Below, piece by piece: positions 4,680-28,841 of a stretch of 30,181 bases of DNA. This DNA is from a virus, in the IMG/VR virus record IMGVR_UViG_3300035698_000405, positions 1-30,181 of that record; one strand, written 5' to 3'. The notes beneath the pieces were generated by a model. The model saw only the letters and a list, made by a program, of their open reading frames with translations. It was not told where the DNA came from and made no database searches. A program made the translations under genes and the position numbers. Positions within the stretch are counted from its first letter, which is position 1, and every line of letters starts with the position of its first letter.

Positions 4680-4797
4680 GAAGCCCAGCCTAGTGACACG
4701 GTGGATGCGATACCTACGTGGTCAAGGACACTCCGAGATGGTGTGTGTTGTACGCGCAAAAGAAATGGCTAAGAAAAAGAAAGGCCCACCAGTATGA
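4672..4797 (+). CDS. Small very basic 41-aa protein
   Basis: ATG at 4672 follows AGGAG (4661-4665) at good spacing, and the frame closes with TGA in an ATGA overlap with the nuclease gene at 4794. The gene therefore fits the coupled operon exactly although it is only 41 codons. The product is strongly basic (MTKKPSL..RWMRYLRGQGH, then EMAKKKKGPPV) and without acidic patches. Its TRWMRYLRGQGHSEMVC stretch could form a helix-turn-helix-like segment, but it is too short for a firm call. Probable nucleic-acid-binding peptide, by inference only. Confidence 0.62.
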   Translation: MTKKPSLVTRWMRYLRGQGHSEMVCVVRAKEMAKKKKGPPV

Positions 4798-8316: not shown

Positions 8317-8317
8317 C

Positions 8318-8560
8318 ATGATGTCGCAAGAGATCGGTAGGATAACTAAGATCGACAACGGATACCTGCTAACAATAGGCGATCACAACACGCACTACAG
8401 TAGTGTTAACTACGCTGCTGATGCGACAGGCATAGCAGAACTTATTATAGCCGCCGCTGCCCGTGAAGTATTGGGTGTCGGTGAACAGCAAGAACTATTT
8501 AGCTCCGGGACTAATCTCGGTGTAGCAAACCCAAAAACCAAAGGACAAACAATACCATGA
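8318..8560 (+). CDS. Small hypothetical protein with a QQELF clamp-binding-like motif
   Basis: An 80-aa protein. I chose ATG 8318, just after the stop of the preceding gene and with AAGAAGG upstream; a longer in-frame reading from 8255 would overlap that gene heavily. Residues 1-35 look like a small beta-hairpin unit (IGRITKIDNGYLLTIGDH), residues 38-52 an alanine-rich helix, and QQELF (57-61) fits the sliding-clamp consensus Q-x-x-[LM]-F in a likely flexible C-terminal tail (SSGTNLGVANPKTKG). It ends in an ATGA overlap with the putative ssDNA-binding protein gene. Function unknown; clamp contact is a hypothesis. Confidence 0.6.
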   Translation: MMSQEIGRITKIDNGYLLTIGDHNTHYSSVNYAADATGIAELIIAAAAREVLGVGEQQELFSSGTNLGVANPKTKGQTIP

Positions 8561-9570: not shown

Positions 9571-9847
9571 TCCTAAACTGGACTTCATTAAGGTCGAGGC
9601 TCTGCGAAAGCATATGCTTCTCACCGCATCCCAGATGGCTACGTTCTTGGGTGTATCACGAGTGACCTACGGCGGGTGGGTAAAAGGAAAGCCCATACGC
9701 AAAGGCAACGACGCCAACGCGAGAGCCGCACTGCGTACCATGTTCACGGTAATTCAAGACCACCAATGGCCAATGCCAGAGGTGATTGCGATGACGCCGA
9801 AGCTGCGATACGAAACGCTGCTTGAACTCACAACAAAAGAAGAGTAA
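9563..9847 (+). CDS. Small helix-turn-helix DNA-binding-like protein
   Basis: A 94-aa protein whose ATG at 9563 overlaps the end of the preceding gene; an upstream in-frame ATG at 9551 would add four residues. Residues 15-50 (LRKHMLLTASQMATFLGVSRVTYGGWVKGKPIRKGN) read as a helix-turn-helix: MTASQMATFLGVS as helix-turn and RVTYGGWVKG as recognition helix, as in Cro/XRE or replication-control proteins. The remainder is helical. It is followed by a strong hairpin and then the primase-helicase gene, so local control of that gene is possible. No operator is visible. Confidence 0.65.
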   Translation: MPDPKLDFIKVEALRKHMLLTASQMATFLGVSRVTYGGWVKGKPIRKGNDANARAALRTMFTVIQDHQWPMPEVIAMTPKLRYETLLELTTKEE

Positions 9848-9854
9848 CGTCAAT

Positions 9855-9887
9855 GGTTCGGGGGGTTATGTTCAGCCCCCCGATACC
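9855..9887 (+). promoter_or_regulatory. Strong GC hairpin in the leader of the primase-helicase gene
   Basis: TCGGGGGG (9858-9865) pairs with CCCCCCGA (9876-9883) around a 10-nt loop, extended by GGT/ACC beyond a one-base bulge. It fills most of the 63-nt gap between the HTH gene and the primase-helicase start. No T run follows, so it is not a typical intrinsic terminator; the ribosome binding site (AAAAGGGA) and ATG 9911 lie 15-30 nt after it. It could block 3' exonucleases, pause polymerase or bind a protein. Confidence 0.6.
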
Positions 9888-9910
9888 AACGAAAACTAAA
9901 AGGGATAGAT

Positions 9911-12775
9911 ATGGATACGCTGGGATTTCTAGAGCGTGTCCTCCCAACCGAAGGCTTCTACTGCGCAATAGTAATCAACGAGGGCTGTGCCCCGCAGCAA
10001 GCATTCTTCGGTTCCGTGGAGGAACTCGCGACCACCTGTCAGAGATTCGATCAGGCTGGACACAACACATACTACGCGACCTCAACATTCAATACCCGAT
10101 TCAACCGCACACAGATTAACACTAAGCTATCCAAGGTTTTGTTCTTGGACATTGACTGTGTTGACGATGACAACCACGAATACAAGAACCAGAGCGATGG
10201 CCTTGCTGCCCTACTAAAGTTCATAGAACTCACGGGTATGCCTAAGCCAATGGTCGTATCATCTGGCCGGGGACTCCATGTGTACTGGGTATTGAGCGAG
10301 GCTCTGCCCAAGACTGAGTGGCAACCATTAGCTGATGCGCTCAAGGCCACCTTCCGAGTGAATGGCTTCGACTTTGATCCGAGCGTCACAGCAGACAGCG
10401 CGAGAGTGCTGCGCCCTATCGGTACGCACAACCCTAAGAACGGCAAAGAAGTTAAGCTACTTATGGATGGGGCCCCGGTCGACAAGCAGACTCTCCAGAA
10501 CATATTGCAGAGAGCTGCACCTGCGGGGGTTGAGGCGAGTGTTGCGAACATCCCTAGTATGATAGCACCCAAGTCACCGCTGGCTGCGGCGATGGAGATC
10601 AAGCAAGAGTACGAACCGTCTAACCCTGACGCCATATACAATAGCTGCCAGCAGGTACGCTGGGCAGTGGACAACCAAGACCAAGTGCTGGAGCCTATGT
10701 GGTACAGCCTGATCGGGTTAGCCGCACACTGCGTAGACCCTGATGCTGTTGCTAAGAACTGGAGCAAGAACCATCCAGACTATAGCGAAGCTGCGACCAT
10801 GCAGAAGCTACGCCAGTGGCAAGCACGTACAACAGGACCAGCGACTTGCGGTAAGATCGAAGCTGACAGGCCCAAAGGCTGCGACAAGTGCCCACTCAAG
10901 GGGAGTATAACATCTCCTGCCATGTGCGGACGGCAGTACAAAGAGACTACGATGGTGTCATCCACAGGTGATGAGTTGCCAGTGAAGCTGCCCAAGCCGT
11001 TCAAGTCGTCTGGGGATATGATCGTTAAGACTGTTGATGGGACAGACGTAGAGGTCTCACCCTTCCTTATATACCCTGTCGGTTATGGCCGTGACGAGAG
11101 CCTCGGCTATGAGACAGTACGCTTTAAATGGAAGCGGCCACATGAGGGATGGACAGACCTAGTATTTAGGCAAGCACATCTCAACGCTAAGAGCAGGGAG
11201 TTCCCCACCGTGATCGCGGATCAGGGGATTGTTCTTAACGGCGAGAAGCAGACAATGGAGTTCCAATATATGTTACGCAGTTACATGAACGAGTTGCGCA
11301 AGTCGCAGTCGATGTCCAATCTCCATGGTGTCATGGGTTGGAAGGACGACCATAAACAATTCGTCATAGGCGGGCGGCTATACAAACGTGACGATGCCGG
11401 GGCTGTGACTGTAGAAGATGTTGCACTGAACAACTCCGCTGGCAATATGGCCAACAGGATGTACGGCACAGCCGGGACCATAGAGAAGTGGACCGACATG
11501 ACCAGTGTACTTGAGACAGCCGACCTACCCCACCACATATTCGCCATCAACAATTCATTAGCTGCCCCGCTCTGGGCTATGACTGGTCTCAAAGGTGTGA
11601 CCATCTCACTGTTCGGCCCGTCAGGTAGCGGCAAGTCCATCGCCCAGTTGATGATGCAGAGCGTATGGGGTGTCCCTAGTAGGCTGCACTTTGCAGCGAA
11701 GTTCACGCACAATGCATTGTTCAATAGGTTGGGGACGTATTGTAATCTCCCGATGACCATCGACGAAGCGACTATGATGCAGGACGTTGGTGACTTCTGC
11801 TACTGGGTGACACAGGGCAGGGACAAAGCAAGGCTGTCCCGCAACGCTAGTGAGCGCGAGGCCAAGGAGTGGGCAACAAGTGTCACAGTGTCCACCAACA
11901 TATCCTTCGCGTCTAAGATGACATCGTCAGGTGTTGAGACCAGCGCGCAGATGGCCCGGCTGCTAGAGGTAGAGATGCCTACGCACAAACTATTCCACAA
12001 GACAAGTGACGCTGGCCGTAAGTTCTCCGACCACATGGAAGAGAACTATGGTGTTGCTGGTGATCTCCTGATGCGTGAGTACATGCGCTTAGGCAAGGCA
12101 GAGTTGAAGCGGCGTATCGCTGAGGCCATACTCAAGTTCGAGGAATGGTACGGCTTCAAGTTCGCAGGTGTCGAGCGCTTCTGGGAGACAACCCTAGTGC
12201 TACAACACGTTGCATGCACCATAGCTAAGGAGCTGGGGCTTATCACCTACGACTTCACGATTGGCATACGCCTCATCATCGACCAGATCGACAGGCTCCG
12301 TGCTAAGGTTGACGAGAACCGCATCGATGGCTTCGATGTTATCACAGAATACCTCAACGAGAATGCTGCTGAGTTCCTAACCATCATGCACACAACCACT
12401 GGCACCCTGCCTCCAGCTTACGATATTAAGCGGGAGCCTCGCAACGAGATCAAGGGGCGGTTCGATGTGTTCCGCAGTGGGCCATTGGATAAGTTCGACC
12501 GTGGCACAGTGATGATAGTACGCAAAGCCTTCAAGGAGTATGTGGCTGGCCGTGGGTATGACTACGGCGTACTGTGCAGGGAGGTTGCTGCCGCTGGTGC
12601 AGATGCCACACCTCACCTAGCTAAGGTGACGATCAGTAAGGATACTAATCTAAAGGCTGGTCAGCACTATGTCCTAGGTATCAACCTCAACAACATGAGA
12701 ATGCTTGGATACCTAGACGCTGCACAGCAACACGCAGATGAGTTAACCCTAGGACATATGGCGGTCGTGCCCTAG
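9911..12775 (+). CDS. Primase-helicase: AEP-like primase fused to DUF927-type ATPase
   Basis: A 954-aa fusion. The N-terminal AEP-like (archaeo-eukaryotic primase) part has FLDIDC (D80, D82), SSGRGLHVYW (H123) and RVLRPIGTHNPK (R166 to K176), the three primase motifs. A four-Cys cluster follows (C313, C324, C327, C339), probably zinc-binding. The C-terminal part is a DUF927/SF3-like ATPase with Walker A GPSGSGKS (569-576), Walker B TIDEA (D618, E619) and a sensor-like VSTN. It would lay primers and unwind the fork for the family A polymerase. AAAAGGGA precedes the ATG. It is the last gene of the + strand block, and its TAG stop lies in the CTAG shared with the convergent gene. Both domains are well supported; polymerase activity of the primase part is possible but unshown. 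Confidence 0.88.
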   Translation: MDTLGFLERVLPTEGFYCAIVINEGCAPQQAFFGSVEELATTCQRFDQAGHNTYYATSTFNTRFNRTQINTKLSKVLFLDIDCVDDDNHEYKNQSDGLAALLKFIELTGMPKPMVVSSGRGLHVYWVLSEALPKTEWQPLADALKATFRVNGFDFDPSVTADSARVLRPIGTHNPKNGKEVKLLMDGAPVDKQTLQNILQRAAPAGVEASVANIPSMIAPKSPLAAAMEIKQEYEPSNPDAIYNSCQQVRWAVDNQDQVLEPMWYSLIGLAAHCVDPDAVAKNWSKNHPDYSEAATMQKLRQWQARTTGPATCGKIEADRPKGCDKCPLKGSITSPAMCGRQYKETTMVSSTGDELPVKLPKPFKSSGDMIVKTVDGTDVEVSPFLIYPVGYGRDESLGYETVRFKWKRPHEGWTDLVFRQAHLNAKSREFPTVIADQGIVLNGEKQTMEFQYMLRSYMNELRKSQSMSNLHGVMGWKDDHKQFVIGGRLYKRDDAGAVTVEDVALNNSAGNMANRMYGTAGTIEKWTDMTSVLETADLPHHIFAINNSLAAPLWAMTGLKGVTISLFGPSGSGKSIAQLMMQSVWGVPSRLHFAAKFTHNALFNRLGTYCNLPMTIDEATMMQDVGDFCYWVTQGRDKARLSRNASEREAKEWATSVTVSTNISFASKMTSSGVETSAQMARLLEVEMPTHKLFHKTSDAGRKFSDHMEENYGVAGDLLMREYMRLGKAELKRRIAEAILKFEEWYGFKFAGVERFWETTLVLQHVACTIAKELGLITYDFTIGIRLIIDQIDRLRAKVDENRIDGFDVITEYLNENAAEFLTIMHTTTGTLPPAYDIKREPRNEIKGRFDVFRSGPLDKFDRGTVMIVRKAFKEYVAGRGYDYGVLCREVAAAGADATPHLAKVTISKDTNLKAGQHYVLGINLNNMRMLGYLDAAQQHADELTLGHMAVVP

Positions 12776-15700
12776 TTAAGGGGCACACCATGTTTGTCTA
12801 GCCCTTGGGACTCCATCACACTACGCCCTAGCTTCTGCAAGTTCTTAGGTAGTGTCTTAAGGTTACGTTCGGAGGCGGTGAGTTTATTAGACTTCCGCTT
12901 CCGCTGTATCTTACCCATCAGATCGTTGACGTATTGCGGGCTAGTCTTACCAACAATACGGTTGGTGCTACGAACACCACGAGCTATGGCGCGCTGTCCT
13001 GCCTTATCAGCTTTTAGATACGCAGTGACAACCTCCGCAGTGTACTCAGCGCTGAGCTTACGTGCGTAGTTTGTCATACGGTTGGCTCCGTACTGTTTAC
13101 TCACTGCGGCTGGACTGAACCCGATCATTTGGAAGAGCGACTCCACGGCACCGATGTTCTTCACAACTGTCTGCCCCCTAGCGTTCACAACTGTGCCGTC
13201 TACCATGTAAGTGACGCCCTTAGCCACGTTCTTCAATGCAGATATACCTAAGCCGCCACGGGCTATGTCCCCAAGGGTAGTGGCATCAGGGCGAACCCCA
13301 ATAGTCTCAAGGCCGTAGCGCCCAATCATTGCAGCCGATCCGAAGATACCCTCCCATGCGCTATACACAGGGCCAGCGATATCTTTTATCACCCGCATTG
13401 GCTCGGCGTCTGCCTTAAGCATACCAGTGCCGGGGAACACAACACCGAACCCAGCACGACCACCCCACTCGACACCTGTTATATAGTTGACTGCGCCATG
13501 TAGCGCTAACTCTGAAGGGACACCAACAGCTTCTGCTATCCTAGATATCTCAAGCTCAAGCCCGCCCCAATCAACCCCGAAGATTTCCATGAGGGTGTCG
13601 AGCAAGTCCGCGAAGTTCCCAGCAAACGGGATGCCCGGTATACCAGCAGTGATGGCGATGAACGCTATGAACATCATGCGTTCCTTGGGTGCCATACTCC
13701 AGAGGTGCTCGACCGTGATTGTCTGGAACATCTTGTAGAGATACACGAACCTAAGCACAGGGCCCTGCGCAATGGTTGGGTAGTTGAACTTGTCGTAGTT
13801 ACCCTGTGAGTAGTCGACAGCATCGTCCACGCGATCAGACAGCATGCGCTTCTCGGCGTCAGTTAGCGTCTTACCTAGCTTCGCACGATCAAGACGGTAC
13901 GCAGCAAGGGCGGTGACGCGGCGGTTGAACTGCTCTGTCTTAGAGAACATGAACATCATCTGGCCAATGGTAGTAATGATGCGATTACTGCTACGCCCGA
14001 AGCGGCCAGCACCAGTCAGTTGATTGGTCAGGTTAGGCGCAGTCACACCGTCCCTAGTTTTCTGTAGCAGCATCTCAGCTTCTTCTAAATTAAGCCCCTC
14101 TTCACGAGCGTTCGCACCCTTCAACTTGAGACGCGCAACAATACTCTTAAGCCCTTCCACATTGCCTGTAACATCTTTCCGCCGCTTGAAGGCAGTGATT
14201 AGGGAGAGGTCAGAGCCCGCTTGTATAAGTGCTCGGGTCGCTGCGTGTATACCGTGACCACCGCCATAACCTGTATCAGGGTGCTGTGTAGATAGCCACG
14301 TTGCACTGTGCGATGGTATCGACGACGTGTTCACAGCAGCAGTAGCTATGGATAAACTAAGCTGCCAGATAGATGCAATAGATAGCGCAGCACCAGATAG
14401 ATCACCTAGTTTTTCATCGCCTGTTGTGGACGGCAACTCAGACCTATTACGGTAAGACGCGACACGGGCTGCGCCTACACCGAGCATGCGACGGCCATCA
14501 CCTTTACCGGAGACTGTAGAGCTTTCGCCAGTCTTATGGTTGTAGATTTTAATAGTGGTGTCGTCTGACGCCTGCACGTACTGGTGCTGGTAGTCCATCA
14601 TTTCACGGCGGGCGTGGAACTCAGCGCCGGAACCTTTGGTTGTTGCCAACCATGTCTTTTGCAGGCTGTCTAGCCGATCCGGGTCGCCTAGCCATAGGGC
14701 ATTATCGCTTAGTGTATCTGTTACCTCATGCTCGTACAGCACCCTAGCTGAGGAGTTAGCCCTCTTCTCAAGATGCTCCCACACTCCCTTACGTATGTCG
14801 GGGTTCCAGCCGGGGACGAACTTACGTTCAAGGCTGTGGCGCGCACCGCCACCTTGGGCAGCAGCCATCTGTACTAGCTTCTCCCTATCTACCCCACCGA
14901 GGGTAATACCAGCGTGGTTCAGCAAGTTGATCGCCTCACCGTAGGATACGATGCCACCCATAGGTGGTAGCTCTAGTGACGTACTCTTGATAGCCTCAAA
15001 GGTCACGCCTTTGATAAGGTCGCCACCATGGCCTAGTAGCTCCATTGGAGGCAGTCCGTTAAGCACCCCATTAAGCTCTGCTACCTGTGACAACGCGTCG
15101 GTGTTAGAGTCTGTGCGAGACATAAACATACTGGACGCAAGCCCGTCATGCAGCTTCACAACTGTGCCATCTACCACGGCTCGCACACGGATTTGGTATT
15201 TACCCTTACGATTAAGTGGGACGTACGCAGACAGTATAGTGTTCTGGGCGACTAGCCGGGCCCGCTCTACGGAAGTGTTGGCCATATGCAGGCCGTGTAT
15301 AGCCTGCTTAATAGCACGGGTGTCGACACCCTTGCCCAGCTTATCCTTTTGCAACGCAGCCAGCTTAGAGATCACCCGGTTAACATTAGCGTCTCCGCTA
15401 GTGCGCAGCACCTCAGTGCTTTTACTGCCAGTAGCCGTTGACCCTTTGAGCCAATCATCTAGCTTTAGCTTACCACGCTTAGTGTCCATCACATCGACTA
15501 CGTTACGTAGGAACGCCTCAGCAGTCCTGATACTCTTCTTATTATAGGAGACTGAGCGCCCGTCGATCTTCTGCCCAGTGCTGTACAAGGTGGTGTACGT
15601 CTCCAGAACATCTTGTAGTGTGTTCATATCCGTGGCAGTAAGCACAGGCTTCTTCGTTGTGCGGTCTAGCGTCTTGCTACGCAGGCCTGTCCAGATTTTG

Positions 15701-18570
15701 TCCCGGTTACGCACCACGCCTTGTGTAGTGTTGAGGTACATATCGAGATCAGCCTGATCCACAACAGCACGTACTTCCTCGGCCACTTTCCAAGCCTCGT
15801 CCGACACAACGTCGAAGTCCAACTTCATGAGCCTAGTCACTACAACTTCTTTGCCGTCAACGGTCTTAACGAGCGGCTTACCCGTGGTCACATCCATGAT
15901 GGGGACTTGGATACCAGCTTCGACTTGCTTCTTAGTCAGCGCAGCCTTGGCTTGTAGTTTCTTAACCGCGACTGTGTCGATAGACGGATCACCATTGGCG
16001 TCGAACTTTAGCAGCTCAGGTGCCTTCCGTAACTCAGAATTAAGATCGCCGCTCCGAGCGTGTAGGATCAACTCCAACACGCGGTCAGCTTGCTCTAGCT
16101 GTGCTTGGGTGGGTCCGCCCGGTCCCTTATGCCCCAGCTTAGCGAGCGCCTCAATGTCATGCGGGAGGTGAGAGTACGATGTGAGACGGTTGTACTTGTT
16201 CTTAAGCGCTGACACCTCTTGGGTTTCAAACCGAAGCGCGTGGAACAAGCGCCGTGCGCCGGGGTTCTTCTTGGCTAGGTTGCCTAGTGACTGGAGAGTC
16301 TCTAGTGAATTGTCATAGATATCTTTCACACCCTCAAGTGCACCCTTAACATCGCGTGTCTCTACTAAGTTACTCACAGATGCAGACATACGCTCAGCAA
16401 TACCGCTGAACCCGTGGGTGATATCTTTCAGACCACCTTGCCCCATGACCACGCCGTCATGGAAAGCGCCCGTGCTATCAGTGGTGCTGTACCGTGTGTT
16501 GATTGCCCGGCTCTCTAGCTCAAGCAGACTGTTGTGCACACCACGGGGTGACACATCACTAACGACACCGTCGCGCACGTACCGGCTGGACTGGTACACA
16601 AAGAAGCGTGTCATGTCATCTTCGAACTTGAAGCCCAACTTGTTGAGCCAGCGCTTAATGACACCACTGAGGCGCATAACCAGTGAGTTGTCGATGTGCC
16701 CTGCGGCATCAGCTAGTGCCTCTTCGATGGCCTCGTACTTCTCAACACCACCTTCTATCTGTCGGTCGGCGTCAGCCTTAATGGTGGAGTCAGACTCATA
16801 TGCATTGTTAAGTAGCTTCTTGAACTCAGCCTTAGGCATGATGGACCCGAGTCCGAAGTGCCCCACAACTTCGTGTGACAGGACAAACGCTAGGTGCTGG
16901 CGGTTAGCTATGTTGTCGCTGAAGACAATAACAGTACGCTTGAACGCTACACCTGCCGCGTTGTCAGGGATGACAGTGCCATCCTCACGCCCGTCTTGGG
17001 CTTCCTTATATAGAGCAGGGTCTTTCTGCTGTAGCTCAGCGACGTTTTTGTAGGTGCGGATGCGCACTTTGAGTGTCTTGCTCAAGCGAGCGCGGAACTT
17101 ACTAACCGCCATCTTCACCGAGCCTAGACTCATTGGCTTAGTGATAGGATTGCCGTCTAAGTCGACGAGGCTGTTACGTGTGTTGACGTCGAAGCTATCA
17201 TCCCCGAACATATTATCCACATCGATACCACCTACCTCAGCGGCGACGTCAATGTCTTCAAGCCCGTCGAACGTGTTGTCTAGCTCAGCGTCATCAGTGG
17301 TAGTGTTGTCCTCTGCCGAGAACATCTTCGCGTCCTTGGCTGCGGCAGCTTCAGCTATGACACGCTTCTGGTCCTCAGTCGGTGCCGCTTGCTCGCCAGT
17401 TGCAGTAGACTTACTCGGTGGAGTGCGCAGTGAAGGGACCAGCGCAAGCATATCATCTGTTGGTTTTGTGGGCCGCACAGGGCGTAGACCACGCTCTGAC
17501 TTGCCTAGCCGGGCGACAATGGCGGGGAATATACCTCGGTTCATCGCGAAGTCCCATAGAGCCTTATGCTTACTGAACTGTGGGTCAGACGTAGCACCAA
17601 AGGTTAGGGACCGAACTTCATCGTTGGCCACATCGGAGAACATACGGTGGACTAATAGCTCACCACCATCCCATAGGGCATCAGCTTCAGGGCTAGCCCC
17701 ATTAACAATGTCAGAGGCGCGGTCATGTGCAGCCTTGTTGGGCTTACTGTTGGAGTCGCCGCCTCTAGTCTCGACTAGGGCTGTGTAAATAATAGTGCGG
17801 GCTGCGTCACGCCATGCCCGGCTCGTAGGCTTAGCTGACTTCAGTGTGTCCACAGCCTCGTTGACCATGATGGTACGCTCGTTGGTGCTGGTCTCAATAC
17901 GGTCTATAGCAGTGGGTTGTTGTTCTTCCCCGACAGGCTGTTCCGACTTTTGCGGTTCAGCGGGCTTACTTTGGTCCGCTTCGTCTGAGGGCTTTTTTGG
18001 TTTGGTATCTTTAGCCCTTCCTCCAGTTTGCCCAGTGTCACTTTCGTTGGTGGACTTACCCTTGCCACTACGCTTGAGGGCTGAGGTTCCGCTTCCAGCT
18101 TTGCCAGTGCCTCCGGGTTGTTCTTCTTTAACCACTCCCTTTGTGCTTGGCTTCTTACTCCGGGCTTTGCTTTTGCCTTTAACTTTTGCATTAAGCTTCT
18201 CCTCTACAACATCTTGTGACGCCTTGTCCGCGTCAGCAGCCTGCTCATCAGGCGATACCTCAGGTGGCCGCAAGTCGAGTGGCAACTGGCCCTCGTTGAC
18301 AGTATCAGAGAACTGCGCGGCTAGTATATCCTCAACGAAGTCTCCCTCATTATTGAGTAGGCCGGGGTAGTCACGCTGCACTTGCTGTACGATACGGCCA
18401 CGATCTGCCCGTGCACTTTGTAGCGCAGTAGCAATCGCAGCGCGCTGTGCGCCCACCTTTGTGATGGCCGGAACCTTCTTCGTAGCCCGTCTAGCCTTTG
18501 CGTTGTCAAGTCGAGCTTGGTCTTCAGGGGCTAGGGCTAGACGGGCTACGATGCTACATGCTTTGGCCAT
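12772..18570 (-). CDS. Giant polyvalent internal virion protein with HExxxH motif and PLxRFG-like region
   Basis: A 1932-aa protein. Residues 1-75 are basic and helical, and QLPLDL (95-100) resembles a hexapeptide sliding-clamp motif. Residues about 120-215 are a low-complexity Lys/Ser/Gly/Pro linker. HEVVGH (566-571) with E616/E617 in EAIEEALAD some 45 residues later looks like a zinc metallopeptidase site of the HExxxH class. The last third contains GPVLRF (1603-1608) and a hydrophobic FIAFIAITAGIPGIPFAG stretch, as in PLxRFG/LPD-type polyvalent proteins, then a basic C-terminus. Such proteins are packaged in the head and injected with the DNA to act early in the host. The start follows GGGAG with TAATG coupling. 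Peptidase activity is inferred. Confidence 0.85.
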   Translation of the reverse strand: MAKACSIVARLALAPEDQARLDNAKARRATKKVPAITKVGAQRAAIATALQSARADRGRIVQQVQRDYPGLLNNEGDFVEDILAAQFSDTVNEGQLPLDLRPPEVSPDEQAADADKASQDVVEEKLNAKVKGKSKARSKKPSTKGVVKEEQPGGTGKAGSGTSALKRSGKGKSTNESDTGQTGGRAKDTKPKKPSDEADQSKPAEPQKSEQPVGEEQQPTAIDRIETSTNERTIMVNEAVDTLKSAKPTSRAWRDAARTIIYTALVETRGGDSNSKPNKAAHDRASDIVNGASPEADALWDGGELLVHRMFSDVANDEVRSLTFGATSDPQFSKHKALWDFAMNRGIFPAIVARLGKSERGLRPVRPTKPTDDMLALVPSLRTPPSKSTATGEQAAPTEDQKRVIAEAAAAKDAKMFSAEDNTTTDDAELDNTFDGLEDIDVAAEVGGIDVDNMFGDDSFDVNTRNSLVDLDGNPITKPMSLGSVKMAVSKFRARLSKTLKVRIRTYKNVAELQQKDPALYKEAQDGREDGTVIPDNAAGVAFKRTVIVFSDNIANRQHLAFVLSHEVVGHFGLGSIMPKAEFKKLLNNAYESDSTIKADADRQIEGGVEKYEAIEEALADAAGHIDNSLVMRLSGVIKRWLNKLGFKFEDDMTRFFVYQSSRYVRDGVVSDVSPRGVHNSLLELESRAINTRYSTTDSTGAFHDGVVMGQGGLKDITHGFSGIAERMSASVSNLVETRDVKGALEGVKDIYDNSLETLQSLGNLAKKNPGARRLFHALRFETQEVSALKNKYNRLTSYSHLPHDIEALAKLGHKGPGGPTQAQLEQADRVLELILHARSGDLNSELRKAPELLKFDANGDPSIDTVAVKKLQAKAALTKKQVEAGIQVPIMDVTTGKPLVKTVDGKEVVVTRLMKLDFDVVSDEAWKVAEEVRAVVDQADLDMYLNTTQGVVRNRDKIWTGLRSKTLDRTTKKPVLTATDMNTLQDVLETYTTLYSTGQKIDGRSVSYNKKSIRTAEAFLRNVVDVMDTKRGKLKLDDWLKGSTATGSKSTEVLRTSGDANVNRVISKLAALQKDKLGKGVDTRAIKQAIHGLHMANTSVERARLVAQNTILSAYVPLNRKGKYQIRVRAVVDGTVVKLHDGLASSMFMSRTDSNTDALSQVAELNGVLNGLPPMELLGHGGDLIKGVTFEAIKSTSLELPPMGGIVSYGEAINLLNHAGITLGGVDREKLVQMAAAQGGGARHSLERKFVPGWNPDIRKGVWEHLEKRANSSARVLYEHEVTDTLSDNALWLGDPDRLDSLQKTWLATTKGSGAEFHARREMMDYQHQYVQASDDTTIKIYNHKTGESSTVSGKGDGRRMLGVGAARVASYRNRSELPSTTGDEKLGDLSGAALSIASIWQLSLSIATAAVNTSSIPSHSATWLSTQHPDTGYGGGHGIHAATRALIQAGSDLSLITAFKRRKDVTGNVEGLKSIVARLKLKGANAREEGLNLEEAEMLLQKTRDGVTAPNLTNQLTGAGRFGRSSNRIITTIGQMMFMFSKTEQFNRRVTALAAYRLDRAKLGKTLTDAEKRMLSDRVDDAVDYSQGNYDKFNYPTIAQGPVLRFVYLYKMFQTITVEHLWSMAPKERMMFIAFIAITAGIPGIPFAGNFADLLDTLMEIFGVDWGGLELEISRIAEAVGVPSELALHGAVNYITGVEWGGRAGFGVVFPGTGMLKADAEPMRVIKDIAGPVYSAWEGIFGSAAMIGRYGLETIGVRPDATTLGDIARGGLGISALKNVAKGVTYMVDGTVVNARGQTVVKNIGAVESLFQMIGFSPAAVSKQYGANRMTNYARKLSAEYTAEVVTAYLKADKAGQRAIARGVRSTNRIVGKTSPQYVNDLMGKIQRKRKSNKLTASERNLKTLPKNLQKLGRSVMESQGLDKHGVPLN

Positions 18571-18992
18571 TAGTTACTCCCGTGTTCAATCCGCAAGCGT
18601 ACGTCGACAGTTGTTGAGCCACCGTATGTACCAGTGGTAACGATCTTGGCCCGAACGAACTTACCGATAGCACCGGACACCGCACCAGCAGCGAGGGCAC
18701 CGTCAACAGTAGCGACAGCCGTAGTGATAGCGGTCTCTTCCCGCACACTGAGCAGATGCTTTAGGCTGGACGTAGTGAACGCGAAGGACATGATGTCCAC
18801 CCACGTAGACTTGTCATCAAAGGAGGTCTGGATATAGACCTTAGCTGTCGTGCCGCCGCTGCCGTACACGAAGTTAACAAAAGCCGTGAGACCAGCAGTC
18901 TCATCAGGGAGGCGGTGCACTTTGCCACGGACTGCGACAGACTGTGCAGTGGTGATGGCGTGGGCGTCTACAAGATGTTGGATAGATGACAT
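18570..18992 (-). CDS. Small beta-rich virion-associated protein
   Basis: A 140-aa protein with AAGGAA before its ATG and TAATG coupling to the giant protein gene downstream. The sequence is rich in Thr, Val, Ser and Gly with alternating strands: LTAFVNFVYG, TAKVYIQTSFDDKSTWVDIMSFAF, FVRAKIVTTGTYGGSTTVDVRLRIE. The pattern of a strand, then SFDDKSTWVD, then further strands is typical of beta-sandwich phage structural proteins that sit on the head or tail surface. No signal peptide or catalytic motif. It lies among internal virion protein genes; a structural role is likely but the precise location is unknown. Confidence 0.62.
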   Translation of the reverse strand: MSSIQHLVDAHAITTAQSVAVRGKVHRLPDETAGLTAFVNFVYGSGGTTAKVYIQTSFDDKSTWVDIMSFAFTTSSLKHLLSVREETAITTAVATVDGALAAGAVSGAIGKFVRAKIVTTGTYGGSTTVDVRLRIEHGSN

Positions 18993-19002
18993 TACATATT
19001 CC

Positions 19003-19152
19003 TTATTTTGCTTTAGCTGTGGTTGTTTGTACTAGGTGGTTACCGCCATGATTGGTAGTAGCCTCTTGCGGCTTAGGTTTAGCAGTACCGGACTTCTTAA
19101 TCTGGTTGGTCTTGCTCATTGGGTGTAAGTCACGGGTGGATATAGTACGCAT
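19003..19152 (-). CDS. 49-aa small basic protein
   Basis: A short gene filling the gap between two virion genes. Its ATG shares a base with the TAA of the 691-aa gene (TAATG), a G-rich Shine-Dalgarno-like run (GGGGGTGG) lies upstream, and the stop falls 10 nt before the next ATG. The product is polar and basic (MSKTNQIKKSGTAKPKP, then a Thr/Ala/Lys-rich end) and probably disordered. A second ATG at residue 12 could also serve as start. No family recognised. Confidence 0.55.
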   Translation of the reverse strand: MRTISTRDLHPMSKTNQIKKSGTAKPKPQEATTNHGGNHLVQTTTAKAK

Positions 19153-21227
19153 TACTTAGCCCACCCCCGGCAGGCTTGGTATTCCTCTAGGGCGTCGATA
19201 CGTTGCTGAGCCTCTTCCATAGCCTCACGGACAGGCACAGGCCGCATCACAACCTCCCCAGTCTCACGGACTTCATGCGGAATATTGACAGTAGGTTCAC
19301 CCCGCGAGAACAGATCACCTTGAGCAGGCCCCATGCGATCCATGGTCTGCTGGTCAAACATGTCAAGCTGGCCCGGAGGTAGCTGGCGCTGTGGAGCCGG
19401 AGCTGGTGCAACTTGTTGTGGAGGCGCAATCGCTTGGGAAGGCTCGAAGATGTCAGCTTGTAATGGGTCGGCATTGACAGGCGCACCCTGCGTCGGGTTG
19501 GGCATAATGATTGTTGGAGTCGGAGGTACTAGATCGAACTCACGTTGAACTTCTGCGCGTGGTGGGGGAGCAGCGATCTCGTTCTCAAGCACACTCATGT
19601 CGCGCTCAAGAGCTTGTTGGTCCTCAAAGCGGTTAGAGCTATCCACGTCTGCGTACGGCAGGATAGGCTCATTACGCGCGGCTTGCTGTTGCGCATCCAT
19701 GCCTTGAAGGTTACGAGCATTAGTCTGGCCAGCATCAAAGAGATCAACTTGCCCCTCCTGCTGCACAGTACCGGAAGGTTGGCGGGGATCACCGGGCACT
19801 TGATCTTGCGGACCTAGCGTTAATGGGCCTAAGTCCTCCTCGTTAAACATTTCCCCCTGCTGCTCTAGCAGTAGTGGGCCTTGGCCTAAGTCCTCATCGC
19901 TGAACAACTCACCTTGGGCGGGGCTAAGCAGGTCGAGGTTCTCTTCCTGTAAGTCACGCGGGGGTGGAGTTGGCTCAGCATCTGGCTCAGCATTTGGCTC
20001 AGCCTCTGGCGACGTAGGTGTGCTGGAAATCGCGTTGGCGGCACCACCGATAGGACCACCGATGCCTGCGCCAGCAGCGAATGCGTTGATTAGTTGGTTA
20101 ATAACTTCGGGGTTGTTAAAGTCTAGCTCACCCGCTGCGCCTAAGGACAGCATATCCTGCATAGTCTCTGCGCCACCTTCAAGCGCAGCACCAGCACCGA
20201 AGCCTTTAGCAGCTCGCGCACCACGTCCTCCGCTAGTGAGGGCATCACGGCCTGCGCGGCCCATTGCGGTCTTGATTGCGAGTGCAGCAGGGCCCAGCTC
20301 AGCAAGCACATAAGGCTGCGCGAAGAGAAGCGTGGTCAAGCGCGCAAGGGCTGGGCTGTCATAGTTACCCGACTCCTCAACAGCTTGGTAGATATCACCG
20401 ATGGCCACGCCTTCTGAGGCAGCGACGGCACCGAACTTCGCACCAGATATACGCCCGGCTTTGCGCAGCGCTGCAAGGTCAGTAGGGTCTACATCTGTCT
20501 TCCCTTTAATACCCTTGATAGCCCGTAGAGCAGCGGTAGCCTCTTCCTTCTTAAGTGTGGGCCCGACTTGCTTAGCGGCTTTCTTTGCAGCACCACGAGC
20601 TAGGAACTTAGCCCCAGTAGCAGTACCCGCAGCTATACCGCCAGCACCACCAGTTAACGCAGAGGTCACAATCATCTCAGCCATGAGGGGGGCCATCTGG
20701 GCAGCGTTAGCTACGAACCAGTCGGCCACGCCCTCAGCGCTATCGATATCAGTAGCTGCGCGTTGGTAGGGCTGGTTAAACCTAATCTCTTCCTCCTGAG
20801 TATCGATGATACTCTGGCCGGTCTCTTCAGCACCGAGGAACTTAAGGGTAGAACCAGCTAACTGCTGGGATGTATCGACACCAATGTCTAGGTTCTTCTT
20901 AGCCAACCGACCAAAGGATGGGTCTTTAATGCGGTTGATGTACCCACCGAACTCCTCGATCTCCATAGGGCGGAAGTTGCTAGGCATAGGCTGCATAGGC
21001 TTGTCTAGCTCAGCCTTGGAGTTGAGCGCAGAGTCGTGGTCGTCAGCGTTGAACGTTGAGCCGTTCACCCAGACCTGTTTAGTAGCAGCATCGAACCCAA
21101 AGGGTGTGAATTGATCCGGCACCTCTGGAGCAGGGGGAGGCGCAAGGCCAGCGGTTACGTCCCCAGTGGGGGTATCTAGCGCGTACGATGGGTCATACGA
21201 CCCCTGTAAGATTGGCGACAGCGCCAT
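19152..21227 (-). CDS. Internal virion-like protein with an array of clamp-binding-like motifs
   Basis: A 691-aa protein with three parts. Residues 1-140 are a mixed N-terminal region. Residues about 150-400 are an Ala/Gly-rich helical region with amphipathic and hydrophobic stretches (MAPLMAEMIVTSALTGGAGGIAAGTATGAKFL; LINAFAAGAGIGGPIGGAAN), fitting a protein that contacts membrane during DNA entry. Residues 405-645 are Pro/Gln/Glu-rich and carry six Q-x-[DE]-[LMI]-F pentapeptides (438, 457, 493, 590, 620, 636). GAGGGG before ATG 21227 and TAATG with the upstream gene support the start. Placement among other internal virion-like genes next to the polyvalent protein suggests packaging and injection. 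The virion role is inferred from context; no enzyme motif is seen. Confidence 0.72.
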   Translation of the reverse strand: MALSPILQGSYDPSYALDTPTGDVTAGLAPPPAPEVPDQFTPFGFDAATKQVWVNGSTFNADDHDSALNSKAELDKPMQPMPSNFRPMEIEEFGGYINRIKDPSFGRLAKKNLDIGVDTSQQLAGSTLKFLGAEETGQSIIDTQEEEIRFNQPYQRAATDIDSAEGVADWFVANAAQMAPLMAEMIVTSALTGGAGGIAAGTATGAKFLARGAAKKAAKQVGPTLKKEEATAALRAIKGIKGKTDVDPTDLAALRKAGRISGAKFGAVAASEGVAIGDIYQAVEESGNYDSPALARLTTLLFAQPYVLAELGPAALAIKTAMGRAGRDALTSGGRGARAAKGFGAGAALEGGAETMQDMLSLGAAGELDFNNPEVINQLINAFAAGAGIGGPIGGAANAISSTPTSPEAEPNAEPDAEPTPPPRDLQEENLDLLSPAQGELFSDEDLGQGPLLLEQQGEMFNEEDLGPLTLGPQDQVPGDPRQPSGTVQQEGQVDLFDAGQTNARNLQGMDAQQQAARNEPILPYADVDSSNRFEDQQALERDMSVLENEIAAPPPRAEVQREFDLVPPTPTIIMPNPTQGAPVNADPLQADIFEPSQAIAPPQQVAPAPAPQRQLPPGQLDMFDQQTMDRMGPAQGDLFSRGEPTVNIPHEVRETGEVVMRPVPVREAMEEAQQRIDALEEYQACRGWAK
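19308..19916 (-). repeat. Six Q-x-[DE]-[LMI]-F motifs (beta-clamp-binding-like array)
   Basis: Within the disordered-looking tail of the 691-aa protein: QGELF (438-442), QGEMF (457-461), QVDLF (493-497), QADIF (590-594), QLDMF (620-624) and QGDLF (636-640). All match the bacterial sliding-clamp pentapeptide consensus QL[SD]LF in its key Gln, Leu/Met and Phe positions; QADIF is one residue from the QADMF of E. coli DNA polymerase III alpha. The surrounding sequence varies, so the motifs rather than a long repeat are conserved. Confidence 0.75.
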
Positions 21228-22960
21228 TAGTACGCCCCTCTAGCTGAAGCCATAATGCTAGACATAGACCCTTTGAAACTAGGTAGTGTAGTTCGTGTTG
21301 AACTCATGCCGGGAACCATCTTCTCATCAGCCCCCTCAACCTCACCAGTTACTGTGTGTACAAGCTGATTACCACGGACCATCCATACGCCCTCCTCAGA
21401 GTCTAGGACAATCTTACCCGCGAGCTCTAGGCGTTTAACCTCAGCTTTACCAGCGTTCTTAATGTGCTCAAGCATTGCGCTTTCTTGCGCGCTCCACTGT
21501 GCATCTCGGAACTTACCGACCCGCTCAGCAGCCGCTGAGTTGATAGCCGCAGCGTACGCACTAGACGCACCCTTACGCGCAGGAGAGGTGATATCCGCAG
21601 TGACGCGGCCTTCGTAGATCATCTGGTCGCCGTCCATCACGTTCCACTTACCATCGGAGCGAGGAACAATCGTTATAGCCCGGCCCGACTGTTGGGACCA
21701 CATGTCTTGCAACATGCGTGGGTCGCCGCCGTTCTCAAATAAGTTAATCGCTTTAGTCTGTGCGAGGTGGGTGACTGTAGCGGTCATATTGTTAAGCGCA
21801 GCTACAGCCTCAATGTACTGCACACCCATACCGGAGCGTTTGTAAGCATCAGCCATTTGGAATAGTTGCTTACGTGCAGCCAGCCCCTGCTGTAGCTCAA
21901 CGTTGTGCAGTTGTATACTCACCGGGGGCTTGGGCTCAGGGGGTCGCGCCTTCACAAGCGCAGTTTTGATATTGCCCTTAGGCATCTCAGCCACACCGGC
22001 TTCCTCTGCAACTTGTTTTACAGCTTTCTTTCTCTCTGCTGGTGTCGGCTTAGCCGCTGGGTCACCGCCCATAAGTGCTGAGGCAGTTTGGGTTGGGGCG
22101 TGAACCGGTGGAGGAGTAGTTGCCCCACCGGCAGGTATAATAGTGCTACTGTACCCTTGAGTCCGCGCCTCGTTAAACGCTTCTTTGCTGCCCCATTTAG
22201 TTAACGTACCGTTTATTAACGCACGGTAGGCATCGCCACCTTGGGCAGCACGCGCCCGAATAAGGTTGTCATAGTCCTCAGCAGCAGAGGTCGCGGGATC
22301 GATTGTAGTCTCTAATGTGAAAGGTTCTGTCTGCTTACCCTTAGCGTCGACAGCCCCAGTGCTACCTGTTGTGCTAGGCACAAACCCAGAGTCGGGTTGT
22401 GGCATATCTGACCTATGCACCGGAGTGGATGTATTGCCAGCGCGCTCGTATATCCAGTCACCGAGTCCACTACCGTCTACAGCCTTTACCCCACGCGCTG
22501 TGGCCTCATCAGCCCTTGCGTTAGCCGCAGTGGAGTCGTCATCAACAAAATCATTCCACCATTTGCGGACTTGCCCAGCAGCCTGAATACCAGACTGAAC
22601 GGGCAGCATGACAGCCCCCCCGTACAGGTTAGCAGCAGTCCGTAGCCCAGCGCGTGATGGGCCCTGTGCCGCAGCCGCAGGAGTTTGAGCGGCGGGCGTA
22701 GCCGGGGGTTTTGGTTGCTGTTGCTGGGCTGCTTGCGCAGCCTGTGCTTGTGCGATCTGTGCGGGGGTTGGCCCTACTTGCACGGTGCTAGCAGTGTTAC
22801 CCTGTGGCCTTATGATCCCAACACCGGGCACTGGTACGTCTTCGTCCCGAATATCCCGCGTGTTGCGGCGTAGGTTCATAGCGTCCCTATACTGTAGGCC
22901 CGCCATGTTGCGCTGCTGACTAAGCTCGTAGTCTCCAGAACGTCCCGTGAAAAAAGCCAT
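21227..22960 (-). CDS. Internal virion-like protein of unknown function
   Basis: A 577-aa protein with an AGAGG site before ATG 22960. Residues 1-110 are Gln/Ala/Pro-rich (AQIAQAQAAQAAQQQQPKPPATPAAQTP) and look disordered. Residues 110-340 are polar with scattered helices. Residues 350-510 are a helical, better folded region (LQQGLAARKQLFQMADAYKRSG; VQYIEAVAALNNMTATVTHLAQTKAINLFE; YAAAINSAAAERVGKF), followed by a short strand-rich unit (GKIVLDSEEGVWMVRGNQLVHTVTGEV). No catalytic motif. It lies in the run of Ala/Gln-rich genes typical of podovirus internal core proteins. The role is an inference from composition and neighbours. Confidence 0.6.
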   Translation of the reverse strand: MAFFTGRSGDYELSQQRNMAGLQYRDAMNLRRNTRDIRDEDVPVPGVGIIRPQGNTASTVQVGPTPAQIAQAQAAQAAQQQQPKPPATPAAQTPAAAAQGPSRAGLRTAANLYGGAVMLPVQSGIQAAGQVRKWWNDFVDDDSTAANARADEATARGVKAVDGSGLGDWIYERAGNTSTPVHRSDMPQPDSGFVPSTTGSTGAVDAKGKQTEPFTLETTIDPATSAAEDYDNLIRARAAQGGDAYRALINGTLTKWGSKEAFNEARTQGYSSTIIPAGGATTPPPVHAPTQTASALMGGDPAAKPTPAERKKAVKQVAEEAGVAEMPKGNIKTALVKARPPEPKPPVSIQLHNVELQQGLAARKQLFQMADAYKRSGMGVQYIEAVAALNNMTATVTHLAQTKAINLFENGGDPRMLQDMWSQQSGRAITIVPRSDGKWNVMDGDQMIYEGRVTADITSPARKGASSAYAAAINSAAAERVGKFRDAQWSAQESAMLEHIKNAGKAEVKRLELAGKIVLDSEEGVWMVRGNQLVHTVTGEVEGADEKMVPGMSSTRTTLPSFKGSMSSIMASARGAY

Positions 22961-25656: not shown

Positions 25657-26007
25657 TTATGCTCCTGTCATATTTCGTATTAGTAGGTCAAGCGCCTGCC
25701 GCGTATCGTACAAATCGTTAGCCAACTGTTGCACATCTGTGCGTAGGTCAGTAAAAGAGTTCAGCGGCGCGGACTCAGCAAAAGAAGTGGGGGTAAGGTT
25801 GTTACTAGTATTAATACTAATCATAACCTGATCACCAACTTGGTTGACTGTCATATCCCCACGGACAATGGCCATGCTGGCGAAGTCACCCTCACCGCGT
25901 GTACCAGTCAGAAGCTCTATGTTCTCTTTAAACGAACCAAACAGTACGCCTTGCCAGTCGAGCTGGGTGTCTGGAACTTCTGGAGTAGCTACGTGTCTAC
26001 GTGGCAT
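25657..26007 (-). CDS. Small virion-module hypothetical protein
   Basis: A 116-aa protein with GAGGAAAG before its ATG and TAATG coupling after the nozzle-like gene. The N-terminal half contains LLTGTRGEGDFASMAIVRGDMTVNQVGDQVMISI, which looks like a small beta unit; the C-terminal half is a helix (LRTDVQQLANDLYDTRQALDLLIRNMTG), probably coiled. This short protein after the nozzle gene recurs in similar phages. Function unknown; a connector or assembly role is possible. Confidence 0.58.
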   Translation of the reverse strand: MPRRHVATPEVPDTQLDWQGVLFGSFKENIELLTGTRGEGDFASMAIVRGDMTVNQVGDQVMISINTSNNLTPTSFAESAPLNSFTDLRTDVQQLANDLYDTRQALDLLIRNMTGA

Positions 26008-28841
26008 TATGCTTTCCTCAGTCCATCTGGGGTCTCACCTAAGTGGATTGCCCGAACTCGTGCCTCACTCGCTACTGACACCTCGAACGTATCCGACTTA
26101 TAGCCCGCCGGGCAACGGAAGATGCTGTCACTCGTTACAGCTTGTGTATACACTAAATTCTTGTCCCGCCATAGCTTAAATATCACAGTATACGCAGAGG
26201 GTGCCGTGCGCGACGACCGAACCAGTGAGCCAAGGCCTGAAGGACCGTTCACTAACGCACTGTTAAAGGCCCCAAAGTTAGTAACTGTCACCCCATCAGC
26301 CCCGACATAATCAGTAGGACCATTAAGCGCCCCGAGTTGTTCACTATCGGTCCATACAGTGGTGTTGTAACTGACGACACTGTTGTTATATGTCGTGTAC
26401 GCGAGAGCGTCCTCTGCCGTGATAGTATAGTCCGCAATGACCCGTGCAGCACCAATGTTGATGTAATCTTTGGTAACAATCGTCTTAGACTTCCACTCCA
26501 TAGGGCGCAGCGGCCACACAGAACTACCCCACTGAGTGATGTTACCTCGAGAGTCACTCGCCGTGTACAGCGCGTTATCCGAAACGTCCGTCCATGCGCT
26601 ATTGAACTGGTGGCCAGCAGTGACATAGTACCCACCAACCTTTTCATCCCGCTCAAAGAGGAACGACCCACCATCATAGGAGCCGAAATACTTATCGTTA
26701 TAGAACTGTCCCACAATCGTCGTGGGGTCAATCCCGTCATCCCATGTGTCCCAATCGTGAAGGAGCTTAGTAGCTAAGCTGAGCCCAGAAGCTGGAGACC
26801 ACAGCGCTAGGCCACCGTATGTAGCGAAGATCACACCATACCCCATGTTGACCACGGACCGCTTCGACAGGCATGGGTAGGGGGTGTCAATACGTGAGAT
26901 ACTCACTGTAGCCGGATCGTTGCCTGTCACCCGGAAAGCGTACGTGTCGGTAAGCACAACTAGATACCCACCGACAACTTCAAGCGCAACGATGTCGTAT
27001 TCAAATGTCTGGCGGTATGCAAGTGGCCAAGCCCAAGGCTTACTGGGTTCAGCAAAGCACAGTTGGTTATCGAAGAACCCAACGACCATGTTGTTCTGCG
27101 CGAGAGTAAGCCCTGTCATCGCTGCATTGGGGGCGTCGTAGTTATCCGTCAGCAGGAGATCAACGAGGTTGAGGAAGTCGAAGTCATCTACATAACTGTC
27201 GTTAGTTAGCACACCAGCAGTGTCAGCAGTGTTCGCCTCATCAACACGGATAAGTCCTGCGGTGTCGGCGGTGCTCGCCTCGTTAGCCGCTGTGTTAGGA
27301 TACGTGAAATTATCGTCGTCTATCCGGGTGATGGTGACTCCGACTGCGTCATAGTCTGTGTCCCCCATCCCAGAAATCGTAGCCACATCGCTGGTTGTCA
27401 TGCCGTGCCCGGTGCTCTGTATAGAGGCAACGTTTGATGTGCGTTCCCGCAGCTCTGTAGCTTTGCCGCCGGTGCCGACATAGGTGAACGCTGTAGAACT
27501 TGTTACAGTGACGCGAGCGTCGGCTTGGTCGTACGTGGAGTCGGTCATGCTAGCAAGCGTGAGCAGTTGGTTGGTGACGTACCCGTGTGCTGCTGCGGTA
27601 GTGATAGTTATAACACCGTTCGTGCGCTCACGGGTAGCAGTGGTAGCGCTGCTGTCTCCCCAGTAACGCGGCGTGTCAGCGGCTAGCTCAGCTACGTTAT
27701 GATAGAGAGTGCCGGTGGTATCGGCCTTAGATGTTATATCCGCGTTGGTTACGGCGTAACTAAAGGCCGTGTCGCTATCGACCACGGTGACTTCGCCGTC
27801 TACAACATCGAACACACTATCTGTGCAGCCTTCGAGTTTGAACTTGTCCCCAACAATGAACCCGTGGTGTGTACCCATAGTGACAGTCGCTACGTTGGAC
27901 GTAAGCGCCACAGTCGCAGTAGTCTGCGGGAACCAAAGGTCAGATAGGTGATAGAACTCAGTGCCAGAGGCAGACGACAACGTGCGGTACAGCTTCATAC
28001 CAGTGATAAAGTTATCCCCAGAAGGTGCCGTAGTTGGTAAGCCACCAATAGAGACTTGCTGTCCTTCTTTGATAAAGAGTGTATCAGATGGGTCAGCGCC
28101 GATACCTTCCTCACCCCATGGTGTGAACCAAGTGTAAGTGTAGTCCCGTGTGATAGTGCCACCAGCTAAGTCAATGGTAGCAGCTGTATCTGCCACGAAG
28201 GCTTGCGTGTCCCCAGCGTTGTAATACTCGAACGTAGTGGTGCTTGTCACAGTGATCCGGGTGTTAGTGATATTAAATGCTTCTGGGATCGTACCGGTGA
28301 AATCCCGTACTGTGATGACGTTGCCGTCACGGAAGCCGTGAGCCGCCGCTGTGGTGATAATAGCTGTATTGCCTGAGTCCCGCTCGTATCCAGCCGAGGT
28401 CGGTGAGACAAAAGCCACCGAGGAAGCTGTCGGAACGGCGGTCGGTAAGGGCAAGCCTAGGTCGTAGAACGAGCTGCTCGCAGCGGGATACGGCTCAGAG
28501 CCCGCCGTAGCTAACGCATATGTGGATACTTTCGGTACACCGTCGCCTGTGTAATAGAAGCGCTGCTCGTCGTCTGAGGAGTCGGACACGGTAATAATGT
28601 CCACATCATTCAGCCAAGTTAGCCAGTCGATAGAGGCATCAGCGCTCGCGCGCATACCATGCAAAGTCTGTAAGACCCCTAGGCGTGGCACGTTGTCGAT
28701 AACAGCAGGCTCGCTGTACGGAATAAGGTCGCCAGAATAGAGCTGCAAGTTATAGGCAATCTGCCCCGCACCGTCAGGAAGAAGTTCTGACGATACCTTC
28801 GGTGCAGTTCCTAGGAACTTCTTGATCTTGATTGCAGCCAT
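26007..28841 (-). CDS. Tail nozzle/tubular protein B-like protein with four inserted repeat domains
   Basis: A 944-aa protein. The N-terminus (KKFLGTAPKVSSELLPDGAGQIAYNLQLYSGDLIPYSEP) and the C-terminal half (residues 550-940, alternating strands with LALWSPASG, GYGVIFATYGG, YNDKYFGSYDGGSFLFERD) fit the nozzle/tail tubular protein B type of short-tailed phages, with a beta-propeller-like body. Between them lie four units of about 50 residues (157-207, 312-363, 404-454, 466-514) sharing a T/N-x-I/V, H-G, V/T, then FxY pattern. AAGGG precedes the ATG and the gene is coupled to the holin gene upstream. Nozzle role is by similarity to the family; the inserted domains probably decorate the tail or bind a ligand. 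Confidence 0.72.
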   Translation of the reverse strand: MAAIKIKKFLGTAPKVSSELLPDGAGQIAYNLQLYSGDLIPYSEPAVIDNVPRLGVLQTLHGMRASADASIDWLTWLNDVDIITVSDSSDDEQRFYYTGDGVPKVSTYALATAGSEPYPAASSSFYDLGLPLPTAVPTASSVAFVSPTSAGYERDSGNTAIITTAAAHGFRDGNVITVRDFTGTIPEAFNITNTRITVTSTTTFEYYNAGDTQAFVADTAATIDLAGGTITRDYTYTWFTPWGEEGIGADPSDTLFIKEGQQVSIGGLPTTAPSGDNFITGMKLYRTLSSASGTEFYHLSDLWFPQTTATVALTSNVATVTMGTHHGFIVGDKFKLEGCTDSVFDVVDGEVTVVDSDTAFSYAVTNADITSKADTTGTLYHNVAELAADTPRYWGDSSATTATRERTNGVITITTAAAHGYVTNQLLTLASMTDSTYDQADARVTVTSSTAFTYVGTGGKATELRERTSNVASIQSTGHGMTTSDVATISGMGDTDYDAVGVTITRIDDDNFTYPNTAANEASTADTAGLIRVDEANTADTAGVLTNDSYVDDFDFLNLVDLLLTDNYDAPNAAMTGLTLAQNNMVVGFFDNQLCFAEPSKPWAWPLAYRQTFEYDIVALEVVGGYLVVLTDTYAFRVTGNDPATVSISRIDTPYPCLSKRSVVNMGYGVIFATYGGLALWSPASGLSLATKLLHDWDTWDDGIDPTTIVGQFYNDKYFGSYDGGSFLFERDEKVGGYYVTAGHQFNSAWTDVSDNALYTASDSRGNITQWGSSVWPLRPMEWKSKTIVTKDYINIGAARVIADYTITAEDALAYTTYNNSVVSYNTTVWTDSEQLGALNGPTDYVGADGVTVTNFGAFNSALVNGPSGLGSLVRSSRTAPSAYTVIFKLWRDKNLVYTQAVTSDSIFRCPAGYKSDTFEVSVASEARVRAIHLGETPDGLRKA
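27300..28373 (-). repeat. Four diverged HG-containing domains in the nozzle-like protein
   Basis: Units at 28221-28373, 27753-27908, 27480-27632 and 27300-27446 each encode strand-(A)AHG-strand-...-VTVTSxTxFxY. Examples are TAIITTAAAHGF..ITVTSTTTFEY and GVITITTAAAHGY..VTVTSSTAFTY. I recognise this pattern from small beta domains in phage tail proteins that can match the E1 FCCH profile. Spacing is uneven: copies 3 and 4 are nearly adjacent and copies 1 and 2 are separated by a segment of about 105 residues. Confidence 0.7.

Follow-up and report, generated by a model that had tools for sequence, protein, structure and literature searches.

The DNA analysed here, referred to as the window, is a 30,181-base virus record from IMG/VR (IMGVR_UViG_3300035698_000405, positions 1 - 30,181). 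An open reading frame (ORF) at positions 19152-21227 on its minus strand encodes a protein of 691 residues, the array protein, whose tail is rich in Pro, Gln, Glu and Ala and carries six pentapeptides of the general form Q-x-[DE]-[LMI]-F. These motifs follow the published grammar of ligands of the bacterial sliding clamp (the β clamp, DnaN) and match a set of 52 motifs from host DnaE proteins. The explanation that we favour, with modest confidence and from sequence, is that the tail would dock a probably injected protein to the host β clamp in a multivalent manner, most likely tethering a polyvalent effector. The array protein and its motifs are as follows.

19152..21227, minus strand: 691-residue array protein, with an N-terminal helical Gly/Ala-rich module (residues ~40-400), a motif-bearing disordered tail and a short C-terminal β-hairpin and helix (from the ORF, PHROG, the relatives and an AlphaFold2 profile of low overall confidence)
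19902..19916, minus strand: motif 1, QGELF, residue 438, followed by SDEDLG; its Q and F are invariant in relatives L001 and L002
19845..19859, minus strand: motif 2, QGEMF, residue 457, followed by NEEDLG
19737..19751, minus strand: motif 3, QVDLF, residue 493, the top score among 9,654 pentamers of the window's proteins (DnaE-derived matrix)
19530..19547, minus strand: possible degenerate seventh site, QREFDL, residue 561, non-canonical, aligned with QLSFDL of L002
19446..19460, minus strand: motif 4, QADIF, residue 590
19356..19370, minus strand: motif 5, QLDMF, residue 620, canonical
19308..19322, minus strand: motif 6, QGDLF, residue 636

A preliminary description of this DNA had pointed out six clamp-like motifs in the tail, and exactly these pentapeptides are present at the positions given. 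Six of the eight Phe residues in the last 286 residues of the protein lie within the motifs. Residues 253-643 have a predicted local distance difference test (pLDDT) score below 50 in an AlphaFold2 model built from a shallow three-sequence input, which fits disorder but is weak evidence for it. The pLDDT was 37 for the model of the whole protein and 45 for that of the N-terminal module, values too low for a comparison of folds. Comparison of the protein's profile with solved structures returned chance-level matches only, and no Pfam domain scored above the cut-off anywhere in the 691 residues.

A β-clamp ligand is defined as Q-φ-x-[L/M]-[F/L] or Q-φ-x-[L/M]-x-[F/L], typically with acidic flanks (PMC11139829). 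Such motifs are known from the host proteins Pol III alpha (QADMF) and Pol V (QLNLF), and also from Hda and Pol IV (PMC11139829). In the window, position 1 is Gln in all six motifs, position 4 is Leu or Met in five (Ile in QADIF) and the terminal residue is always Phe. Position 2 is aliphatic (V, A and L) in three copies and Gly in the other three. A broad range of residues, with Gly in 2 of 52, occupies this position in the DnaE motifs, which came from Gamma- and Alphaproteobacteria and a small number of other genomes; their third residue is usually D or S. In the phage copies the third residue is D or E, closer to the gammaproteobacterial style, and this is a weak hint at the host. When the pentamers of all window proteins were ranked with the matrix derived from the DnaE motifs, ranks 1-4 fell in the array tail and all six motifs were in the top 14. 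Across the arrays, position 2 is most often Gly. The Gly form is also found in a genuine replication enzyme, a DNA polymerase I of Bacteroidaceae (L102:92-3085) in which the linker separating the 5'-3' and 3'-5' exonuclease domains has four QGDLF motifs in close succession. This polymerase was the useful exception in a scan of genomes with a three-copy DNA pattern, which was otherwise set aside because the in-frame matches were mostly simple tandem repeats.

The six motifs might be a mere coincidence, given that the tail is Q-rich and compositionally biased. This is not the case, however. In 200,000 shuffles that preserved the composition of the tail, the pattern Q..[LIM]F occurred 0.129 times on average and three times at most, and no shuffle reached six; the enrichment is also seen again in homologue sets collected independently of the motifs. 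Coincidence in a Pro/Gln-rich low-complexity tail is ruled out by these results, and the probability that we leave to it is negligible.

Two relatives, with ~54% identity in the N-terminal module, were recovered with the array protein alone as query, and a profile search added L006. The tail of L002 contains the pentapeptides QEEMF, QGELF and QEAMF together with the hexapeptide types QPELDF, QQELAL and QGELPL, and that of L001 contains QSDMF and QTTLDL. Scanning DNA for two pentapeptides near each other yielded further large viral proteins with arrays. The resulting array set has 15 proteins, including those of the window and L002; nearly all were found by their pentapeptides, and L002 by homology. 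The set contains 13 hexapeptides against 1.6 expected, a number that none of 5,000 shuffles reached. Neither a tblastn search of cultured phages with the array protein nor a homology scan of genomes gave a match.

The array set was gathered largely by its motifs, and as a control for ascertainment homologues were fetched using only the motif-free N-terminal module. The window family obtained in this manner has 30 non-redundant members, and motifs were counted over 300 residues, beginning 40 residues ahead of the point where the module match ends. This region contains 28 pentapeptides compared to 3.2 expected, and 44 hexapeptides of the form QxxLx[LF] compared to 10.2 expected (maximum 20). Many of them are canonical (QLSLF, QLDLF, QLELPF, QMELPF, QLELPL). 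The N-terminal modules of the family, 12,101 residues in total, contain just 2 pentapeptides and 15 hexapeptides. At least one motif is present in 26 of the 30 members, at least two in 19 and at least three in 11. A small residual bias persists in this set because L038, one of the five seeds, was itself found by its motifs. A second family of 59 non-redundant members contains 74 pentapeptides against 3.5 expected, with no motif in 20 of the 59.

Position scans of the window family agree with the clamp grammar. In the pentapeptide scan only Q at position 1, L or M at position 4 and F at position 5 are enriched, besides P and D at position 5, which reflect the hexapeptide form, and, more weakly, N at the same position. 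In the hexapeptide scan only Q at position 1, L at position 4 and F or L (more weakly I or M) at position 6 are enriched. Gln is thus the sole residue enriched at position 1, and the preferences at position 4 and at the end are those of the window motifs. The clamp-motif interpretation put forward in the preliminary description is supported by this replacement of pentapeptides by hexapeptides in relatives, by the enrichment of clamp-pocket residues only and by the enrichment in motif-independent homologues. The sequences show the motifs themselves, their grammar, their persistence despite turnover and the fusions described below; that the motifs bind DnaN is inferred.

Several observations weigh against this interpretation. 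Gly at position 2, found in three of the six window copies, is sub-optimal; substitution of Leu at this position lowers affinity (PMC11139829). The array homologue of L006 has lost the pentapeptides, 4 of the 30 window-family relatives are free of motifs, and hexapeptides are not enriched in the second family (7 against 9.6 expected). An extension resembling DLGxAP follows the Phe in 26 of 75 copies by a hand tally of the array set, and clamp grammar does not explain it. Furthermore, individual motif sites turn over among relatives. In pairwise alignments of this poorly alignable region, the motif Q is conserved in register at 47% compared to 32% for other Q residues of the linker, and the motif F at 22% compared to 31% for other linker F residues. 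In register, the motif residues are therefore conserved barely more than the rest of the linker: the presence of motifs persists, but fixed sites do not. The comparison of Q and F with the surrounding linker, which had been proposed earlier as a check, thus turned out in two ways, with enrichment retained in the homologues and single sites changing almost as freely as the linker.

The extension can be described more closely. Copies of the Q[GR]E[LM]F type are often followed by a stretch close to xxEDLGxAP, as in the window (19828-19916) and in L015, L016, L017, L033, L052, L110 and L112.

The array gene sits in a structural cassette. Its product matches phrog_6958 ('virion structural protein') weakly, with an E value of 5.8e-8, and phrog_6958 was matched in three of five members. 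The gene directly upstream encodes an SLT transglycosylase domain in L001 and L006 (E values 8e-20 and 8.5e-17); this domain was not found in the window's own 577-residue neighbor or in the homolog from L002. SLT transglycosylases are typical of proteins that open the cell envelope during DNA ejection. The label 'internal virion-like' in the preliminary description has indirect support from the phrog_6958 match and from the SLT-bearing neighbors in relatives, and the array protein would probably be packaged in the virion and injected with the phage DNA. The other members of the cassette are listed below.

12772..18570, minus strand: 1932-residue polyvalent protein with a zincin-type metallopeptidase (HEVVGH) and a DarB-like/PLxRFG C-terminal region (phrog_11358, tblastn)
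18271..18288, minus strand: hexapeptide-type QLPLDL, residue 95 of the 1932-residue protein
18570..18992, minus strand: 140-residue protein between the array and polyvalent genes (ORF)
21227..22960, minus strand: 577-residue upstream neighbor; the gene in the same place in L001 and L006 has an SLT transglycosylase domain
26007..28841, minus strand: 944-residue protein, phrog_511 ('internal virion protein'), E value 6.4e-97

The slot between the array and polyvalent genes varies. It holds the 140-residue protein in the window, a 422-residue repeat protein (LLHTLDNPNAY..., 8948-10216) in L001 and a protein of 1259 residues in L006. The L006 homolog of the polyvalent protein (14801-17419) has, as judged by eye, a QGDLF in an N-terminal place comparable to that of QLPLDL, possibly an exchange of penta- and hexapeptide outside the array protein.

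The relationship of the array protein to the polyvalent protein is apparent from fused relatives. In L017, L018 and L038 the array region is fused to a metallopeptidase region that is 26-41% identical to the 1932-residue protein of the window, and the N-terminal part of the L038 protein has 54% identity to the window module over 59 residues, with a broader match when no filter was applied. In the second family, a module of its own and the motifs are fused to HEXXH, ART-PolyVal, LPD39 and DarB-like regions. This makes it probable that the 691- and 1932-residue proteins of the window are partners, with the motif tail probably serving to target an effector assembly that is delivered into the cell. 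The 691-residue protein itself is classed as a detached module and not as a polyvalent protein, because it has no Pfam domain and the domains are found in the fused relatives.

In the mechanism that we propose, the array protein would enter the cell along with the phage DNA. The Q, L/M and F of each motif would occupy the conserved cleft of DnaN that is used by the host polymerases, and the flexible tether, with its several individually weak copies, would provide avidity for a dimeric ring with two clefts. The tether might thereby bring the co-delivered polyvalent effector, with its metallopeptidase and DarB-like modules, to DNA-bound clamps located at the host replisome or behind it.

The replication genes of the window phage bear on what the clamp might be used for. 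The phage encodes a family A DNA polymerase, in which a strict motif scan detected no clamp motif. DnaN domain III had no match in either the window or L006, a relative of 59 kb, although both records may be incomplete. A small ORF of the replication region, at 8255-8560 on the plus strand (its start is perhaps near 8318) and positioned 3' of an SNF2-type helicase, has the clamp-type sequence GVGEQQELFSSG (motif QQELF) near its C-terminus and is possibly a second host-clamp ligand of the phage. QMELF in a RecB-like nuclease (4794-5447) was also considered as a clamp motif and was judged to be probably part of the nuclease fold. On another viral contig, a DNA methylase (L053:5127-5927, PF01555) ends in a tail that has QEELF and QADLF, and is possibly a clamp-tethered phage methylase.

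Recruitment of the clamp, a decoy function and tethering would all use the same binding, and sequence therefore cannot separate them; it is the fusion architecture that favors tethering, which was absent from the proposals of the preliminary description. As a decoy, the injected tail would fill the clamp clefts, displace Pol III and the clamp-loader partners and halt replication in the host as infection begins. The motif evidence for this is the same as for docking and tethering, and a precedent is provided by the phage clamp inhibitor Twort Gp168 (PMC11139829). With a family A polymerase of its own, the window phage might also tolerate the loss of Pol III. The fusion to enzymatic polyvalent modules, however, suggests targeting and not blocking, many relatives have only one or two motifs, and it is general knowledge that the copies of a protein in one virion are few compared to the clamps in a cell, so that stoichiometric blocking looks weak. 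A decoy thus appears unlikely. Alternatively, the motifs would serve to load host clamps onto the phage genome as it enters, or to keep them there, for its first replication or repair, for which the lack of a detectable phage DnaN in the window and L006 could be cited, as well as the QQELF of ORF 8255-8560, which suggests that the phage may also rely on the host clamp in another setting. However, the phage polymerase is of family A and lacks the motif in the strict scan, and nothing links the array protein to phage DNA, making this use of the clamp very improbable.

It is also conceivable that the motifs bind another structural protein of the phage, such as the portal, the ejection tube or the capsid, and that their likeness to clamp ligands is convergent. 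The array protein is probably structural, about a third of the copies carry the DLGxAP extension, and conservation is weak site by site, all of which would be compatible with such docking. Nevertheless, penta- and hexapeptides interchange, the residues at positions 1, 4, 5 and 6 fit the DnaN pocket, and the motif is shared with host DnaE and a bacterial Pol I. Moreover, copy numbers from 0 to 7 are not obviously expected of a fixed structural contact. A purely structural contact is, in our judgement, quite unlikely.

Like the arrays, host clamp ligands have Q at position 1, L or M at position 4, F or L at position 5 or 6, penta- and hexapeptide forms and a disordered acidic context. However, those described in a review have one or two motifs (PMC11139829), whereas the phage arrays have up to seven in one protein without a polymerase or repair domain. 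Twort Gp168 is likewise a phage protein directed at the host β clamp, but it fills the DNA channel and not the motif cleft, and no motif array is described for it (PMC11139829). Proteins with tandem PCNA-binding motifs, such as Spd1 (in PMC11139829), also combine several short clamp motifs in one disordered chain and gain avidity, although their clamp is eukaryotic, their motif is of the PIP type and they are cellular regulators. Compared to the polyvalent proteins of Iyer et al. 2017 (PMC5512222), relatives of the array protein have the same kind of architecture, with the array region fused to a zincin peptidase, ART-PolyVal, LPD39 and DarB-like C-terminal regions. The window array protein differs in being encoded by a separate gene, and no arrays were seen in the large proteins of the cultured DarB-like phages that were sampled (KPP25-, F116-, ZX1-, RHph_TM29-, SE131- and douglas-like). 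A text search of PMC5512222 shows that clamp, DnaN and sliding are not mentioned there. The internal virion (ejection) proteins of T7-like podoviruses are comparable because of the SLT transglycosylase neighbor in relatives and the phrog_511 match in the cassette; they have no sequence match to the array protein, whose packaging and ejection are predicted. The preliminary description named no established phage function for such an array in a virion protein, and the open-access literature searched gave no report of such a docking tail and no paper that treats clamp motifs of virion or polyvalent proteins from phages.

The clamp-docking interpretation yields a direct prediction, namely that the motif peptides bind DnaN. 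If it is true, the arrays would be an address label for injected phage effectors, a large class for which the place of action has so far been guessed, and they would be naturally multivalent ligands for a protein recognised as an antibacterial target. Docking that is multivalent and carried by the virion would join the known ways in which phages meet the host clamp. More tentatively, and with a probability somewhat below even, injected polyvalent systems may carry a dedicated clamp-docking tail that places peptidase, ADP-ribosyltransferase and DarB-like modules on the replication clamp early in infection, an arrangement that may be common to many uncultured phages.
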